A DNA stretch of 64,000 nt, from positions 2,914,001 through 2,978,000 of the forward strand of contig NZ_JAZIFX010000001.1 of assembly GCF_036634175.1 (NCBI RefSeq), given 5' to 3'. A model generated the notes under the pieces. The model ran no database searches. It worked only from the letters and a program-made list of their open reading frames with translations, and was not told the origin of the DNA. This document shows positions 6,991-32,057 of this stretch, in pieces. Position numbers and translations under genes: made by a program. Position 1 is the stretch's first letter. Each line of letters starts with the position of its first letter. This stretch comes from Streptomyces sp. P9-A2 (lineage in GTDB: Bacteria > Actinomycetota > Actinomycetes > Streptomycetales > Streptomycetaceae).

Positions 6991-7965
6991 ATGCCGCACA
7001 CCGAGACACCGGGTACCGAAGGGGCCCCGGCGACCCGGCTGCGCTGGTGGACCGAGCTGCCGCTGATCCTTCTCGTGTACGCCTGCTACTCCGCGGGGCG
7101 GCTGTTGGTCCGGGGCGATGTCACCGACGCCGTGGACCACGGTCTGGCGATCCTGCGCATCGAGCAGGCGCTGTACCTCAACGCCGAGCACCCGCTGAAC
7201 CGTCTCTTCACGCGCGAGCCGTGGCTGGGGATACCGGCCGACTTCTGGTACGCGTCGCTGCACTACCTGGTGACGCCCGTGCTCCTGGTCTGGCTGTTCC
7301 GCTCCCGCGCGGTGCGCTACCGCGCCGCCCGCACCTGGCTGATGACGTCGACGTTCATCGGGCTGATCGGCTTCACGCTGCTGCCCACCTGCCCGCCCCG
7401 GCTGCTCGACGCGAGCCACGGCTTCGTCGACACCATGGCCCAGTACAGCTCGTACGGCTGGTGGGCGGGCGAGGCCAGCGCCCCCAGAGGCCTGGGCGGA
7501 CTGACCAACCAGTACGCGGCGATGCCGAGTCTGCACGTGGGCTGGGCCCTGTGGTGCGGGGTGATCCTGTGGCGGTACGGCGGTACGCGCCCGGCGAAGA
7601 CCGCCGCTGTGATCTACCCACTGGTGACAATCGTCGTGGTGATGGGCACCGCCAACCACTACTTCCTCGACGCGGTCGCGGGTGCCGCCGTGATGGGCGC
7701 CGGACTGCTGCTCACACCGGTCGTGTTGCGCACCACGGACCGGGTGAGGGCCCGTGTGCTGCCGCGCTTCGCACCGGCCCCGGTGGTCTCCTCCGTCCCG
7801 GGTTCCCCGATTGTCAGTGACGGATGCCAGACTTCCACGGGTGAGCAATTTCCAGGGCAGCGGCAGCGACAGCTCGAGCCACGGTTCGCCTCCGGAACCG
7901 AGCCGGGCGACTCCCCTCCGGCCCACGGGGAAGACGCCGAGACAGCTGCGGCACCGGCTCGCTGA
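6991..7965 (+). CDS. PAP2 superfamily (inositolphosphotransferase-like) membrane protein
   Basis: 324 aa integral membrane protein with about six transmembrane segments (ELPLILLVYACYSAG; FWYASLHYLVTPVLLVWLF; LMTSTFIGLIGFTLLP; VGWALWCGVILW; AVIYPLVTIVVVMGTA; AVAGAAVMGAGLLL). The acid-phosphatase-type motifs are AAMPSLHVGWAL (PSxH) and ANHYFLDAVAG (catalytic His plus Asp). This pattern matches the Aur1/Ipt1-like branch, which transfers or hydrolyses lipid-linked phosphate groups. The ATG at 6991 follows GAGGGAGAGGGCG. The C-terminal tail of about 60 residues is hydrophilic, and its last 125 nt overlap the next gene in another frame. Confidence 0.85.
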   Translation: MPHTETPGTEGAPATRLRWWTELPLILLVYACYSAGRLLVRGDVTDAVDHGLAILRIEQALYLNAEHPLNRLFTREPWLGIPADFWYASLHYLVTPVLLVWLFRSRAVRYRAARTWLMTSTFIGLIGFTLLPTCPPRLLDASHGFVDTMAQYSSYGWWAGEASAPRGLGGLTNQYAAMPSLHVGWALWCGVILWRYGGTRPAKTAAVIYPLVTIVVVMGTANHYFLDAVAGAAVMGAGLLLTPVVLRTTDRVRARVLPRFAPAPVVSSVPGSPIVSDGCQTSTGEQFPGQRQRQLEPRFASGTEPGDSPPAHGEDAETAAAPAR

Positions 7966-9142
7966 ACTGCGCGGTCCGGACGTACGGGCCAAGGCGCTGG
8001 ACGCGCGCGCCCTCGCCGCCCTGGCCGCCAACCCGGGCTGCGAGCGGCGCGCGATCCTCGACGGCGCGGGGGTGGACAAGGCCACGCTCGCGGGCGCGTT
8101 GGGCTCCCCGTCGGTCTTCGGCCAGTCCCAGTTCGCGTTCGTCCGGGGCAACGCGTTCGAGGCCAAGGTCAAGGCCGACGGCGGTACGGAGCTGCTGCGG
8201 CTGGTCCACGAGAAGCTGGACCGCTCGGCCGAACCGCCCGCCGCCGCCCGGGTGCCCGACCTGTCCGCGGCGGGCCACGCGGGGCGTGCGGCGCGTACGG
8301 AACTGGCGCTGGGCGAGGCCGTCCTGGCGCCGGGCGAGTGGACGCTGCTCGACCATCCGCTGCTCGCGCTGGACGTCGCCGGTTCCCCGGCCTTCCTGGA
8401 GCCGGACGCGGTGGTGGTGCACCCGGACGGCAGTTGGACGGTCGTGGAGATCAAGTCCTTCCCCCTGCTGGACGGGTCCGCCGATCCGGCGAAGGTCGGC
8501 GCGGCGGCCCGGCAGGCGGCGGTGTACGTCCTCGCACTGGAGGAGGTCGCCGCCCGCCTCGCCACCGCACCGGACGCCCCGAACACCCCGAACGCCTCCG
8601 GCGGGGCTCCCCGGGTGCGGCACCGGATCCTGCTGGTGTGCCCCAAGGACTTCTCCAACCTGCCGACCGCGTCCGCGGTGGACGTGCGCAAGCAACGTGC
8701 GGTGACCGCCCGTCAGCTGGCCCGGCTCACCCGCATCGAGAACATCGCCGACACGCTCCCGGACGGCACCTGCTTCGCCCCCGAACTGCCCCGCGAGCGG
8801 CTGACGGCGTCCGTGGAGTCCGTCCCGGCGAGCTACGCGCCGGAGTGCCTGTCCGCGTGCGAACTGGCCTTCCACTGCCGGGACCGTTCCCGGGCACAGG
8901 ACGCGGTGACCACCCTGGGCCGCCCGGTCCGTGCCGAACTGGGCGGCCTGACCACGGTCGAGGACGTACTGGCGGCGGCCCGCGGTGAGCTCGGCGACCC
9001 CGACGATCCGACGGTCGCCGCCCTGCGCAGGGCGGCGGCACTGCGCGCGGAGGCGCTCGCCGGAGCCGAGGCGTTCGCCGGCACGCGGGCCCTCGCCGGC
9101 GTGGCGGGGACCGCCCCCGCGGAGGTGGCCCCTTGTCTCTGA
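7841..9142 (+). CDS. Cas4/Dna2-type PD-(D/E)XK nuclease with candidate Fe-S cysteines
   Basis: 433 aa from the GTG at 7841. The nuclease core shows motif I RGNAFEAKV, motif II EPDAVVVHPDGSW and motif III VVEIKSF (the D...ExK metal site). Four cysteines are placed as in Cas4, AddB and Dna2: one before the core (Cys67, NPGCERRAIL) and three after it (Cys336, 340 and 346, in CLSACELAFHC), spaced CX3CX5C against the CX2CX5C I recall for Cas4/Dna2. This predicts a nuclease closed by an iron-sulfur cluster. The start is uncertain: a GTG at 7817 is in frame, and both overlap the PAP2 gene. The gene ends inside the start region of the next one, so three genes (7841-12155) are coupled. Confidence 0.82.
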   Translation: MSNFQGSGSDSSSHGSPPEPSRATPLRPTGKTPRQLRHRLAELRGPDVRAKALDARALAALAANPGCERRAILDGAGVDKATLAGALGSPSVFGQSQFAFVRGNAFEAKVKADGGTELLRLVHEKLDRSAEPPAAARVPDLSAAGHAGRAARTELALGEAVLAPGEWTLLDHPLLALDVAGSPAFLEPDAVVVHPDGSWTVVEIKSFPLLDGSADPAKVGAAARQAAVYVLALEEVAARLATAPDAPNTPNASGGAPRVRHRILLVCPKDFSNLPTASAVDVRKQRAVTARQLARLTRIENIADTLPDGTCFAPELPRERLTASVESVPASYAPECLSACELAFHCRDRSRAQDAVTTLGRPVRAELGGLTTVEDVLAAARGELGDPDDPTVAALRRAAALRAEALAGAEAFAGTRALAGVAGTAPAEVAPCL

Positions 9143-10806
9143 TCACCACCCTCGCCCGCCTCGAGGCCGTCAGCACCGGCCGTGCCCGGCCCGCCGCCAC
9201 CGTCCGGCACCGGCATCTGTCCCGGCGGCCCCTGGTGTTCGTGCCGCTGACCACCGCCGGTGAGGCGGGCGCCCCGCTCGGCGCGCTGGTGGGCACCGAC
9301 CGGGACGCGCCCCGGCTGCTGGCCGTACCGCAGCCGCGCGACCGTGATCTCAGGTTCGCGTTCCTGGCCGAACTGGCCGACGTGGTCCTGCCCTACATCG
9401 ACGGCTGCGCCGAGGCCGTGGAGGCCGCGGAACGCAGCGAGACCGACCCGGAGACCGGCAAACGGATCAAAGTCGAGGTCGAACTGTGCGCGGACGCCCC
9501 GCAGCTGATCGTGCCGAGCCGGGCCGGTGTCGAGCTCGTACGGCTCCTCGGCCGTTCCACGCGGTTCAGGCGCACGGCGGAGCAAGACCCGGAGGCGCCC
9601 TTCCCGGCGCCGCCCCGGGTTCCGTTGCTCGGACGGTGGCTGACGCACTTCGGGGAGCGGGCCCGGGTGCCCGGGTCGTCGCTGCTGCCCGCCATGACCG
9701 ATCTGCTGGGCCGGCACTGGGCTACCGGGCAGTCCACCCTGGAGGACCAGCACCTGGGGGCGCTGCTCGCGTGGATCGACCCGCCCGCGGGCCGCTCGGG
9801 CGCCGAGGCCGCGCGGGAGGCGGAGCTGGCTCGGGACGCCGACGGGCAGTTGCGGTGCCCGCCCGCGGGCCCGGCGACCGACCCGGCGTTCGACAACAAA
9901 CTGCTCGCCCCGGCGATCGAACGGTACGACCGCGCCCGTACGGCGCTCGCCGCCGCGCAGGACGGCCTGGAGGCCGACGAGCGGCTCGGCGCGCTGACGG
10001 CGGCGGAGCGGGAGATCCGCTCCCTGGTGGAGAGCCGTACGCGGCCCACCTGGGACGCGGTGTGGCGGGGCCTGGACCTGCTGCGCGCGCTGCCCGAGGG
10101 CACGCGGGTCGAGGAACGGTGGACGCGCGACCGCTGGTCGTTCACCGGCCACCGGGACCGGGTGCTGGCCGGAGAGCCGCCGCAGCCGCGCCGCGACGAC
10201 GCGGTGACCGCGGCCAACAAGCTCGCCACGCGCGAGCGGGAACAGGCCCGGCTGGAAGCGCAGGAAGCCTTGGACGACCCGTTGGTGATGGCGGGCCGGC
10301 GGCTGTCCGGGGAGGCGTTCGCGGGCGAGGTCACCGACGTCGTCATGGCGTACAGCGAGAGTAAGCGGCCGAGCCCGCGCCCGCTGGTCACCGTCCGCAC
10401 GGACGACCGCCCGCACCTGGGCGCGCGGACCCGGGTGTACCGCTCGCTCGGCGGAAAACCGCAGGCGGCCGAGTTCGTCGCGTACGAGGACGAGACCGAC
10501 AGGCACGGGAGGGACGGCGCCGAAGAGGGATCGGCCGGGGAGGGGCTGTCCGGGGAGGGGGCGGTCACCGGCGGGCTGCTCGTCCTGCGGATCATGGACA
10601 AGATGGGCCGCGGCAAGGAGCCGGAGGCGGGTTCGGTGCCGGAGAAGGGCGACCGCGTCTGCTTCACCCTGTTCGAGCACGAGCCGCGCGGCGGGGCGAA
10701 ACTGCCCGACCCGGAGGAGACACCGTGGACACACGGCGGCCCGCCCGGCGCGGAGGCCGCCACGCAGGAGCCCGCCGACCCGGTGACCGAGGAGGACGTG
10801 CTGTGA
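9133..10806 (+). CDS. uncharacterised middle protein of the nuclease-helicase operon
   Basis: 557 aa, TTG start at 9133 with GGAGG 8 nt upstream; it overlaps the nuclease stop by 10 nt and the helicase start by 4 nt. No catalytic motif is recognised. The N-terminal third is mixed alpha/beta, the middle (about 200-400) is charged and probably helical, with coiled-coil-like AAEREIRSLVESRTRPTWDA and KLATREREQARLEAQEAL. About residues 385-520 look like a beta-barrel (GEVTDVVMAY, PLVTVRTDDRPHLGARTRVY, AEFVAYEDE, GGLLVLRIMDKM, GDRVCFTLFEHE). That is the kind of accessory barrel found ahead of the motor in Upf1/Dna2-like SF1B helicases. The barrel assignment is inference from strand patterns. Its fixed position suggests it bridges nuclease and motor. 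Confidence 0.72.
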   Translation: MSLITTLARLEAVSTGRARPAATVRHRHLSRRPLVFVPLTTAGEAGAPLGALVGTDRDAPRLLAVPQPRDRDLRFAFLAELADVVLPYIDGCAEAVEAAERSETDPETGKRIKVEVELCADAPQLIVPSRAGVELVRLLGRSTRFRRTAEQDPEAPFPAPPRVPLLGRWLTHFGERARVPGSSLLPAMTDLLGRHWATGQSTLEDQHLGALLAWIDPPAGRSGAEAAREAELARDADGQLRCPPAGPATDPAFDNKLLAPAIERYDRARTALAAAQDGLEADERLGALTAAEREIRSLVESRTRPTWDAVWRGLDLLRALPEGTRVEERWTRDRWSFTGHRDRVLAGEPPQPRRDDAVTAANKLATREREQARLEAQEALDDPLVMAGRRLSGEAFAGEVTDVVMAYSESKRPSPRPLVTVRTDDRPHLGARTRVYRSLGGKPQAAEFVAYEDETDRHGRDGAEEGSAGEGLSGEGAVTGGLLVLRIMDKMGRGKEPEAGSVPEKGDRVCFTLFEHEPRGGAKLPDPEETPWTHGGPPGAEAATQEPADPVTEEDVL

Positions 10807-12155
10807 CCCGCCACTCATCCGCCGAGGCCGTCTTCGACGCCGGCGCGGCCGCCACCCGTGCCACCGACGCGATCCTGCGCGACACCCTGTACGGCACCGC
10901 CCGCGGTGTGGTCGTCGACTCTCCGCCCGGCGCCGGCAAGTCCACCCTCGTGGTCCGCGCGGCGCTGGAACTGGCCGACGCGGGCCGCCCGTTGATGGTG
11001 GTGGCGCAGACCAACGCCCAGGTCGACGACCTGGTGCTGCGGCTCGCCGAGAGGAACCCCGCCCTGCCGGTCGGCCGGCTGCACAGCAGTGACACCGACC
11101 CGTACGACAAGGCGCTCGACGGGCTGGACAACGTCCGCAAGTCGGCGAAGGCGGCCGACCTCGCCGGGCTCGACGTGGTCGTCTCGACGGCCGCCAAGTG
11201 GGCGCACGTCAAGGGCGTCGAGCCATGGGCGCACGCGATCGTGGACGAGGCGTACCAGATGCGTTCGGACGCGCTGCTCGCCGTGGCCGGGCTGTTCGAG
11301 CGGGCACTGTTCGTGGGTGACCCGGGGCAGTTGGACCCGTTCTCGATCGTGGGCGGCGAGCAGTGGGCGGGGCTGTCGTACGACCCGTCCGCGTCCGCCG
11401 TGACCACGCTGCTCGCGCACAATCCCGAGCTGCCGCAGCACCGCCTGCCGGTGTCGTGGCGGCTGCCCGCCTCGGCGGCGCCCCTGGTGTCGGACGCGTT
11501 CTACCCGTACACGCCGTTCCGCAGCGGCACCGGGCACGGCGACCGGCGGCTCGCGCTCGGGGTCCCGTCGGACGGTTCGGGGCCCGACCGGGTGATCGAC
11601 GAGGCCGCCGAGTCCGGCTGGGGCCTGCTGGAGCTGCCCGCCCGGCACACCCCGCGCACCGACCCGGAGGCGGTACGGGCGGTGGCGCTGGTGGTCCGCC
11701 GGCTGCTGGACCGGAAGGGCGCCTCGGTCTCGGAGCGGTCCCCCGAGGCCGTGCCGCTCACCGCCGACCGGATCGCCGTCGGCACCGCGCACCGCGACCA
11801 GGCGGCGGCGGTACGGTCGGCACTGGCCGCGCTGGGGGCGGCGGACGTCACCGTCGACACGGCGAACCGGCTCCAGGGCCGGGAGTTCGACGTCACGGTG
11901 GTGCTGCACCCGCTGTCCGGCCGCCCCGACGCCACCGCCTTCCACCTGGAGACGGGCCGACTGTGCGTACTGGCCTCCCGGCACCGGCACGCCTGCATCG
12001 TGGTGTGCCGGGCGGGCGTCGGCGAGCTGCTGGACGCCTACCCGTCCACGGAACCGGTCCAGCTGGGCACCCTCGTGAAGTTCCCGGACGGCTGGGAGGT
12101 CAACCATTCAGTCCTGGCCCACCTCGCCCGGCACCGGATCCCCTGCCGGCCATGA
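10803..12155 (+). CDS. Upf1/Dna2-like SF1 DNA helicase
   Basis: 450 aa ATP-dependent helicase motor; GTG start at 10803 overlaps the previous stop (GTGA). All SF1 motifs are visible: I SPPGAGKST (about 40-48), Ia VVAQTNAQVDDLVLRL, II VDEAYQM (about 147), III GDPGQLDPF, IV PVSWRLP, V VDTANRLQGREFDVTVV, VI LASRHRHACIVV. Motif Ia, the DEAxQ box and the NRLQGREFD motif V are closer to Upf1/Dna2 SF1B enzymes, which move 5' to 3', than to UvrD/RecB. It lacks the long N-terminal extension of Dna2, which here may be supplied by the two preceding genes. Polarity and coupling to the nuclease are inferred, not shown. Confidence 0.9.
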   Translation: MTRHSSAEAVFDAGAAATRATDAILRDTLYGTARGVVVDSPPGAGKSTLVVRAALELADAGRPLMVVAQTNAQVDDLVLRLAERNPALPVGRLHSSDTDPYDKALDGLDNVRKSAKAADLAGLDVVVSTAAKWAHVKGVEPWAHAIVDEAYQMRSDALLAVAGLFERALFVGDPGQLDPFSIVGGEQWAGLSYDPSASAVTTLLAHNPELPQHRLPVSWRLPASAAPLVSDAFYPYTPFRSGTGHGDRRLALGVPSDGSGPDRVIDEAAESGWGLLELPARHTPRTDPEAVRAVALVVRRLLDRKGASVSERSPEAVPLTADRIAVGTAHRDQAAAVRSALAALGAADVTVDTANRLQGREFDVTVVLHPLSGRPDATAFHLETGRLCVLASRHRHACIVVCRAGVGELLDAYPSTEPVQLGTLVKFPDGWEVNHSVLAHLARHRIPCRP

Positions 12156-12832: not shown

Positions 12833-13468
12833 ATGAGCAGTACACGCAACGCCCCTGATGCCGGCCGTGCCACCGGCGCCACCGATGCCACCGGGGTCAC
12901 CCCGGACGGCGCCGCCTGGCTCGCCTCCGCAGGAACGTATCCGCGCAGTGCGCTCTCCCTCTGGGAGGAGCGGCCGGAGGCGCCGATCGTGCTGCCCTGC
13001 GGCTCCGTCTTCGATGTGGTGAGCGCGCCCTCCACCTTCGGACGCCGGATGCTGGACCGGATGTGGGACGAGGGGCCGGGTTCGGGTCCGGTGGCCGGGT
13101 TCCGCGGCCGGATGCTGCTGTTCGCGGCACCCGGCACCGCCCAGCGGCTACCCGCGCTGCTGGGGTGGGAGGAGTGGGACGCCCGCGGCAGGGGCCCTGG
13201 GGAAGCGGGCCGTACGGGCGCGGTTCCGCCGCTGCTGTGCCACGGCGCCGGAGACGCGGTGACCGTTCCGGCCCCGGCGCCCGGTGCTCGCGCGGACCGT
13301 TCCGGCTCCCGTTGGCTGGTCGCCCCGGACACGCGTCATCCCTGGCTGCCGGGCCCGGAGGTGCTGCTCTGGGCGGCCGTACGGGCGGCTCGCGCGGCCG
13401 TACGGATATCGATTTTTCCTCCCGCCGATCAGAGTGCTAATGTCTACGACGTCAGCAGGCGCCGCTAG
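12833..13468 (+). CDS. Prim-Pol-like hypothetical protein whose end overlaps tRNA-Lys
   Basis: 211 aa protein with AAWLASAGTYPRSALSLWEE, LPCGSVFDVVSAPSTFGRRML, GPVAGFRGRMLLFAAPGTAQRL and SRWLVAPDTRHPWLPGPEVLLWAAVRAA. The GSVFDVV...PGTA pattern is what actinomycete proteins annotated as bifunctional primase/polymerase-like show, and it resembles the protein at 3765-4265. Enzymatic activity is not supported by visible metal ligands. The last ten bases, including the TAG stop, lie inside the 5' acceptor stem of tRNA-Lys, so the tRNA promoter lies within the 3' part of this coding sequence. The C-terminal stretch after residue 195 (ISIFPPADQ...) may therefore be non-essential. Confidence 0.7.
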   Translation: MSSTRNAPDAGRATGATDATGVTPDGAAWLASAGTYPRSALSLWEERPEAPIVLPCGSVFDVVSAPSTFGRRMLDRMWDEGPGSGPVAGFRGRMLLFAAPGTAQRLPALLGWEEWDARGRGPGEAGRTGAVPPLLCHGAGDAVTVPAPAPGARADRSGSRWLVAPDTRHPWLPGPEVLLWAAVRAARAAVRISIFPPADQSANVYDVSRRR

Positions 13469-13532
13469 CTCAGTTGGTTAGAGCAGCTGACTCTTAATCA
13501 GCGGGTCCGGGGTTCGAGTCCCTGGCGGCGCA
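13459..13532 (+). tRNA. tRNA-Lys (anticodon CTT)
   Basis: 74-nt cloverleaf. Acceptor arms GCGCCGC and GCGGCGC pair fully, with discriminator A. D-loop GCTCAGTTGGTTAGAGC, anticodon stem GCTGA/TCAGC with loop CTCTTAA (anticodon CTT at 13493-13495), T-arm with GGTTCGAGTCC. CCA is not encoded. A -10-like TAATGT lies just upstream. The sequence is identical to the tRNAs at 28480 and 31976. Confidence 0.98.
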
Positions 13533-13540
13533 CGACACGG

Positions 13541-28479: not shown

Positions 28480-28553
28480 GCGCCGCTAGCTCAGTTGGTT
28501 AGAGCAGCTGACTCTTAATCAGCGGGTCCGGGGTTCGAGTCCCTGGCGGCGCA
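28480..28553 (+). tRNA. tRNA-Lys (anticodon CTT), second copy
   Basis: 74 nt, identical base for base to the tRNA at 13459: acceptor GCGCCGC/GCGGCGC, anticodon loop CTCTTAA, T-arm GGTTCGAGTCC, no encoded CCA. A -10-like TAGTAT lies about 45 bp upstream. Confidence 0.98.
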
Positions 28554-28558
28554 CAGTG

Positions 28559-31975: not shown

Positions 31976-32049
31976 GCGCCGCTAGCTCAGTTGGTTAGAG
32001 CAGCTGACTCTTAATCAGCGGGTCCGGGGTTCGAGTCCCTGGCGGCGCA
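31976..32049 (+). tRNA. tRNA-Lys (anticodon CTT), third copy
   Basis: 74 nt, identical to the tRNAs at 13459 and 28480. A -10-like TAGAGT lies about 20 bp upstream. CCA is not encoded. Confidence 0.98.
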
Positions 32050-32057
32050 CCGACAGC

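Follow-up and report, generated by a model that had tools for sequence, protein, structure and literature searches.

A probable three-gene, Dna2/Bad-like helicase-nuclease in Streptomyces, with additional copies beside SbcCD and Wadjet genes

We examined three consecutive genes in a 64,000-nucleotide stretch of DNA (the window) from Streptomyces sp. P9-A2, whose genome comprises two contigs, of 8.28 Mb and 102 kb. The genes encode a predicted nuclease (NUC), a middle protein (MID) and a helicase motor (HEL), and probably specify a helicase-nuclease of the Dna2/Bad kind divided over separate proteins (Table 1). An earlier note, made from the sequence alone, had described them as overlapping genes for a Cas4/Dna2-type nuclease, a protein with a barrel-like C-terminus and a Upf1/Dna2-like motor of superfamily 1 (SF1), and the two overlaps were confirmed at these open reading frames (ORFs). 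The start of NUC is uncertain, given that residues 1–24 mostly have low AlphaFold confidence and the frame of the PAP2 gene upstream stays open to position 7965. At the 21 loci with all three genes, and with starts chosen by script, NUC and MID always overlapped, by 4 to 13 nucleotides (nt), and MID and HEL did so by 1 to 11 nt at 17; in a wider scan with one genome per species, short gaps replaced the overlaps at many loci.

Table 1. Features of the three-gene locus (positions are those of the window).
Feature	Position	Strand	Evidence
NUC, predicted iron-staple PD-(D/E)XK (RecB/Cas4/Dna2-type) nuclease, 433 aa, GTG start	7841-9142	+	
NUC Cys67, first of the predicted Fe-S ligands, ahead of the nuclease core	8039-8041	+	C in 117/117
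NUC E203-I-K205, nuclease active-site motif	8447-8455	+	E203 in 114/117, K205 in 115/117
NUC Cys336, Cys340, Cys346 (CxxxCxxxxxC), predicted Fe-S ligands after the core	8846-8878	+	C in 117/117 each
NUC/MID overlap (end of NUC, start of MID), 10 nt	9133-9142	+	
MID, accessory subunit, 557 aa, TTG start, without family match	9133-10806	+	AlphaFold model
MID residues 31-383, tentative RNase H-like (family-B polymerase exonuclease-like) region with long helices	9223-10281	+	Predicted
MID residues 334-519, stalk helices and 1B-like beta-barrel	10132-10689	+	Predicted
Overlap of MID end and HEL start, 4 nt (GTGA)	10803-10806	+	
HEL, Upf1/Dna2-like SF1 helicase motor, 450 aa, GTG start	10803-12155	+	AAA_11/AAA_12, SMUBP-2, Dna2, Upf1
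HEL Walker A region (SPPGAGKST)	10920-10946	+	G43, G45, K46 in 83/83
HEL motif II (DEAY)	11244-11255	+	D148, E149 in 83/83

NUC is predicted, from its modelled fold and its conserved residues, to be an iron-staple nuclease bearing a 4Fe-4S cluster. Its AlphaFold model has the PD-(D/E)XK fold of the Cas4/Dna2/AddB class and is similar to Cas4, Exo5, AdnA/AddB and Dna2, and the four cysteines, of which one precedes and three follow the core, are invariant in all 117 distinct homologues (counted after leaving out truncated ORFs, duplicates and ORFs of 250 amino acids or fewer), even at 21–27% identity. The RecB-family motifs D/ExK/QxxxY are also kept (D189 in 115, Q225 in 116 and Y229 in 117 of the 117, besides the active-site residues listed in Table 1). 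Closest among named relatives were Streptomyces proteins at 94–95% identity. The window NUC had no match in Pfam, NCBIfam (none at E ≤ 1, Cas4 included), PADLOC or PHROGs, and PDDEXK_1 was found in 9 of the 70 members of the NUC alignment (69 of 78 NUC loci plus the window), with a best E of 0.0048 that falls below the family-call cut-off. Direct searches of the PDB with NUC and MID returned nothing useful, and a search there with the NUC profile found neither Cas4 nor Dna2, only two chains at E 0.36 and 1.1, as well as two designed repeat proteins that matched via a short repeated stretch. Three copies (L021, L024 and L128) have lost the active site and kept the four cysteines, as expected if NUC were mainly a structural DNA-binding subunit in which selection maintains the Fe-S fold rather than cleavage; given that E203 is missing from only three and K205 from only two of the 117 homologues, we regard this as the least credible of the explanations weighed here.

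HEL matched AAA_11 and AAA_12 above the Pfam cut-off, and a profile of 38 sequences (37 of 57 HEL loci plus the window) found SMUBP-2 (E 2.8e-13), Dna2 (E 1.2e-08) and Upf1 (E 1.6e-05), in agreement with the motor anticipated for the third gene; UvrD_C_2 was matched only at E 0.34, so that HEL does not class as a UvrD-like motor. It also matched one PHROG family of unknown function (E 2.4e-15). Dna2 and Upf1 have a 1B domain ahead of Walker A. Given that the Walker A region of HEL begins at residue 40, after only 39 residues, there appears to be no room for such a domain before its motor. A counterpart is modelled in MID, whose C-terminal part, in an AlphaFold model with a mean predicted local distance difference test score (pLDDT) of 90.6 and by structure match, resembles the stalk and barrel of Senataxin, Sen1 and Dna2, in keeping with the barrel suspected from the letters alone. 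In eukaryotic Dna2, nuclease, 1B barrel and SF1B helicase follow one another in that order, and the parallel order that had been proposed for the three genes is thereby supported. The model further suggests, tentatively, an RNase H-like fold for the N-terminus of MID, which the earlier note had not foreseen. MID had no family match in Pfam, NCBIfam, PADLOC or PHROGs, Foldseek with the MID model gave no match at E ≤ 0.001, and RNase_H_2 (PF13482) was not found in any of the 64 members of the MID alignment (63 of 75 MID loci plus the window). HEL is closest to the Upf1-like helicases, whose substrates include RNA, and is related to SMUBP-2 as well; with a Senataxin-like barrel and perhaps an RNase H-like body in MID, the trio could be an RNA-processing machine. 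However, nucleases of the Cas4/Dna2/AddB class act on DNA, and the linkage to SbcCD and Wadjet described below is to two DNA systems, so that an RNA machine seems very improbable.

The three genes are conserved together. In a sample of 41 genomes (25 Streptomyces, the source genome included, and 16 further), MID was present in 32 genomes and in all 25 of the genus, NUC in 31 and in 24 of the genus, and HEL in 32, with a weak match in G040, and in 24 of the genus. The contig of G001 stops inside MID, so the presence of HEL there cannot be judged. G010 (L195) has no NUC, a truncated and frame-broken MID and an adjacent HEL that aligns over residues 8–446, which means either that the set has been dispensable at least once or that the assembly is faulty. 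Among 396 genomes of the phylum, where only the best three or four candidates per genome were scored, MID was matched in 14, NUC in 17 and HEL in 41 at E ≤ 0.001; given that the same 14 genomes strongly match all three, the association is more than chance. Reading the DNA of two small genomes in which NUC and HEL had been found and MID missed (G204 and G291) revealed diverged NUC, MID and HEL in order (L191 and L192), and a profile comparison with 26 rows, L191 among them, confirms that the diverged MID is homologous to MID (probability 99%, E 3e-18). The only match in G357 was a borderline one to NUC, and the remaining HEL matches in the phylum (E 1.9e-14 or weaker) look like generic SF1 helicases. 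The earlier note had named three findings that would count against its reading, namely a nuclease outside Cas4/Dna2, unconserved cysteines and genes that do not co-occur, and we observed none of them.

Further loci came from a scan with one genome per species, which confirmed 556 places; we took the best 80, a non-random set because the order reflects resemblance to a mobile copy. HEL was not found beside MID in 21 of these 80 loci, mostly Micromonospora, with L099 and L149 ending at MID or NUC, and it was located elsewhere in all 14 searched genomes in which it does not adjoin MID. In Micromonospora, MID and HEL can be separated by a gene that encodes an N-terminal GmrSD domain (L084:11577-13919 and L086; the domain was tested in L084).

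Around the window trio, a PAP2 gene (PF14378) precedes NUC, and small genes and then a tRNA-Lys gene at 13459 follow HEL; a scan of window genes near the trio revealed no defence gene. The neighbourhood is largely common to six of the seven displayed core loci from the genus, and a GGDEF-EAL gene lies a few genes downstream in six of the seven (L032 is without it). Micromonospora loci have a GGDEF-EAL gene of the same loose cluster after MID, and this shared neighbour suggests an old chromosomal position. Given that the neighbourhood is largely shared and held no defence gene where scanned, DNA-end repair is likelier for the core copy than dedicated defence. Separately, the window carries three tRNA-Lys(CTT) genes within ∼18.6 kb (13459-13533, 28480-28554 and 31976-32051), which are possible integration sites for mobile elements. 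A short protein at 12833-13468 has an N-terminal Prim-Pol match (PF09250, E 9.3e-07), and its frame enters the first tRNA-Lys gene.

The source genome holds two more trios, at L021:8689-12733 (C1:2172772) and, on the 102-kb contig, at L022:6360-10380. Such paralogous operons, and what accompanies them, were likewise unforeseen by the earlier note. Extra copies form a four-gene operon, GX-NUC-MID-HEL, in which GX (∼280 amino acids) stands directly before NUC in the displayed rows (e.g., L070:7971-8816). GX was present in 58 of the 99 loci with NUC or MID (the 80 above and earlier ones, with genes called by a simple codon-usage caller), in mobile and Actinomadura-type operons, and was absent from 22 of the 25 Streptomyces genomes, those with the core trio only. 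Two GX representatives had no Pfam family and one had no PADLOC model match; the GX alignment comprised 27 of 47 GX loci plus L021. In the middle of the protein there appears, by eye, to be a winged helix.

SbcD/SbcC-like genes were present in 21 of the 99 loci (20 distinct, as L031 and L077 are apparently the same contig), with Metallophos and SbcC_Walker_B confirmed by Pfam at a representative locus. They mostly diverge from GX, and are co-directional after HEL in L105, L115 and L130. On a MID tree of 71 rows, obtained by a quick search with Shimodaira-Hasegawa-like approximate likelihood ratio test (SH-aLRT) support only and after setting aside 29 near-duplicate or close-kin loci (SbcCD is present in four), the distribution of the SbcCD label takes at least six changes, gains and losses together. 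The SbcCD-bearing groups lie apart on this tree, as the main mobile clade (near which L022 falls on a long branch, its placement unsure), L105, and L115/L130. In the source genome, an SbcC query found two places, one of them strong and adjoining the trio of the second contig. Wadjet-type genes were found in 10 of the 99 loci: type I JetABCD in L065 and L070–L075 (representative L070 confirmed by Pfam and PADLOC), and DUF2397/DUF2398 genes, which we take to be JetA/JetB of Wadjet II, in L023, L076 and L080 (of these, L023 was scanned with Pfam). Extra copies also occur in two Streptomyces plasmid records, and on the annotated plasmid WAC00288 JetABCD comes after the same four genes. Wadjet cuts circular DNA and spares linear DNA (PMC10586767). 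Given that difference, a degrader of linear ends beside Wadjet would be a reasonable complement.

These neighbours, together with a SNF2-type helicase that follows the L021 trio (near the PADLOC HKD+Snf2 and DrmD models), the GmrSD-like gene of L084 and the plasmid records, favour a dedicated anti-phage or anti-plasmid defence throughout, core copy included, that destroys foreign DNA and not host ends. However, the window copy has the largely shared neighbourhood described above, and GX is absent from the genomes with the core trio only. Nor does the trio figure among the anti-phage system proteins of PADLOC 2.0, where NUC and MID matched no family and HEL had motor-level matches only. Phage records held no homologue of MID or HEL, and viral contigs no relative of MID (NUC was not searched there), the PHROG match of HEL aside. 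We therefore consider defence by all copies unlikely. Of the interpretation offered by the earlier note, the nuclease type, the motor, the barrel-like end of MID, the gene order and the conserved trio are supported, and its defence role is suggested by the extra copies only.

Relatives of HEL on plasmids of Mycobacterium, Mycolicibacterium, Rhodococcus and others had 26–36% identity among the matches listed, and the protein before the plasmid HEL relative is homologous to MID (profile comparison probability 96%, E 3.8e-09; 7 rows). We opened seven plasmid-type regions from Mycobacteriaceae, Rhodococcus and Euzebya (L066, L067, L068, L184, L185, L186 and L189). In six of them, a MoxR-like or AAA ATPase, a VWA-like protein (carrying DUF2201 in L184) and a protein of 63–70 amino acids precede the MID-HEL pair, and NUC is not annotated; in the Euzebya region a small protein accompanies MID-HEL and MoxR/VWA genes do not adjoin the pair, and two Arthrobacter-type plasmids are arranged differently. 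From these arrangements, MID and HEL look like a constant core whose partner is exchanged, and the MoxR/VWA-MID-HEL set is possibly a separate, uncharacterised system. With a joined MID and HEL query, no fused MID-HEL protein appeared among the 120 of 233 matches listed.

Among known systems, Bad of Geobacillus (PMC7430649) resembles the trio in its four-cysteine iron-staple nuclease, its SF1B motor and its order of nuclease, then helicase, and differs in being one polypeptide, whereas the trio has three genes and an extra, probably RNase H-like region in MID. With three ORFs, the trio lacks the union of nuclease and helicase in one polypeptide that marks Dna2 and Bad. The paper on Bad also refers to another DNA2-like class, present in Mycobacteria and Rhodococcus (PMC7430649), which we infer to be the TM0106 class. 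Two fused actinobacterial proteins (L166 and L168) combine a TM0106 nuclease, RNase_H_2 and an AAA_11 helicase, with PDDEXK_1 itself in L166. TM0106-type proteins (TIGR03491/PF13482) would thus share the order nuclease, RNase H-like region, helicase with the trio, if the MID N-terminus is RNase H-like; however, they are fused, while the trio is split and its NUC and MID match neither TIGR03491 nor PF13482. Because hhalign comparison of the trio profiles with six TM0106-type proteins, several of them truncated where their locus stops, gave no information on NUC or MID, kinship here is argued from domain order and fold. Tentatively, then, the nearest fused parallel besides Dna2 may be PD-(D/E)XK + RNase_H_2 + helicase of the TM0106 type. 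In the diverged trio of L192, a TM0106/RNase_H_2 nuclease gene (L192:3059-4753) overlaps the HEL end by 17 nt, which places the trio and the TM0106 type in one apparent operon. Eukaryotic Dna2 with Mre11-Rad50 is like the trio in domain order and in that the Mre11-Rad50-like SbcCD adjoins extra trio copies, and differs in that the trio genes are split. AdnAB and AddAB likewise couple an Fe-S RecB-type nuclease to an SF1 motor for DNA ends, but HEL is Upf1-like and not UvrD-like. As for Cas4, its NCBIfam families did not match the window NUC, and a Pfam scan of six window proteins found no Cas family.

Taken together, the trio is probably a split Dna2/Bad-like helicase-nuclease for DNA ends, which would be domesticated in its chromosomal core copy and would act in defence in its mobile copies. 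HEL would be the ATPase motor, to which MID would contribute a stalk and 1B barrel, parts that belong to the motor chain itself in other SF1B helicases, and the putative RNase H-like body of MID would probably scaffold or guide DNA. NUC, braced by its predicted cluster, would cleave the single strand fed by the motor. Strand feeding to an iron-staple nuclease and guidance by barrel and stalk are drawn by analogy with Dna2 and with Bad (PMC7430649), and we infer the complex, the cluster, the polarity, the substrate and the pathway of the trio. The machine would load at ends readied by SbcCD (Mre11-Rad50), which it would then resect or break down. In Streptomyces, the task of the core chromosomal copy would be DNA-end processing. 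The mobile copies, which come with GX and often with an SbcCD of their own next to Wadjet or further defence genes, would remove linear DNA of foreign origin. A more far-reaching version is doubtful as a whole: an actinomycete resection of the Mre11-Rad50/Dna2 type with a two-polypeptide SF1B motor, whose mobile copies, with private SbcCD and a fourth subunit, would finish DNA opened by Wadjet, and whose MID and HEL would be re-used on plasmids with MoxR/VWA in place of the nuclease.

The database records that we met name the three proteins only hypothetical protein or AAA ATPase, and text searches of the literature returned no title on the trio among the matches listed, with most subscription papers and all bioRxiv preprints outside their coverage. 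What is new is probably a helicase-nuclease of the Dna2/Bad kind in which, according to the models, motor and barrel are separate proteins. If this reading is true, a function would be given to three proteins conserved throughout the genus, and the extra copies would tie end processing of the Mre11-Rad50 type to Wadjet immunity. The trio would also be a genetically tractable, three-part bacterial Dna2, from which nuclease, barrel and motor could be removed singly, in a genus with linear chromosomes.

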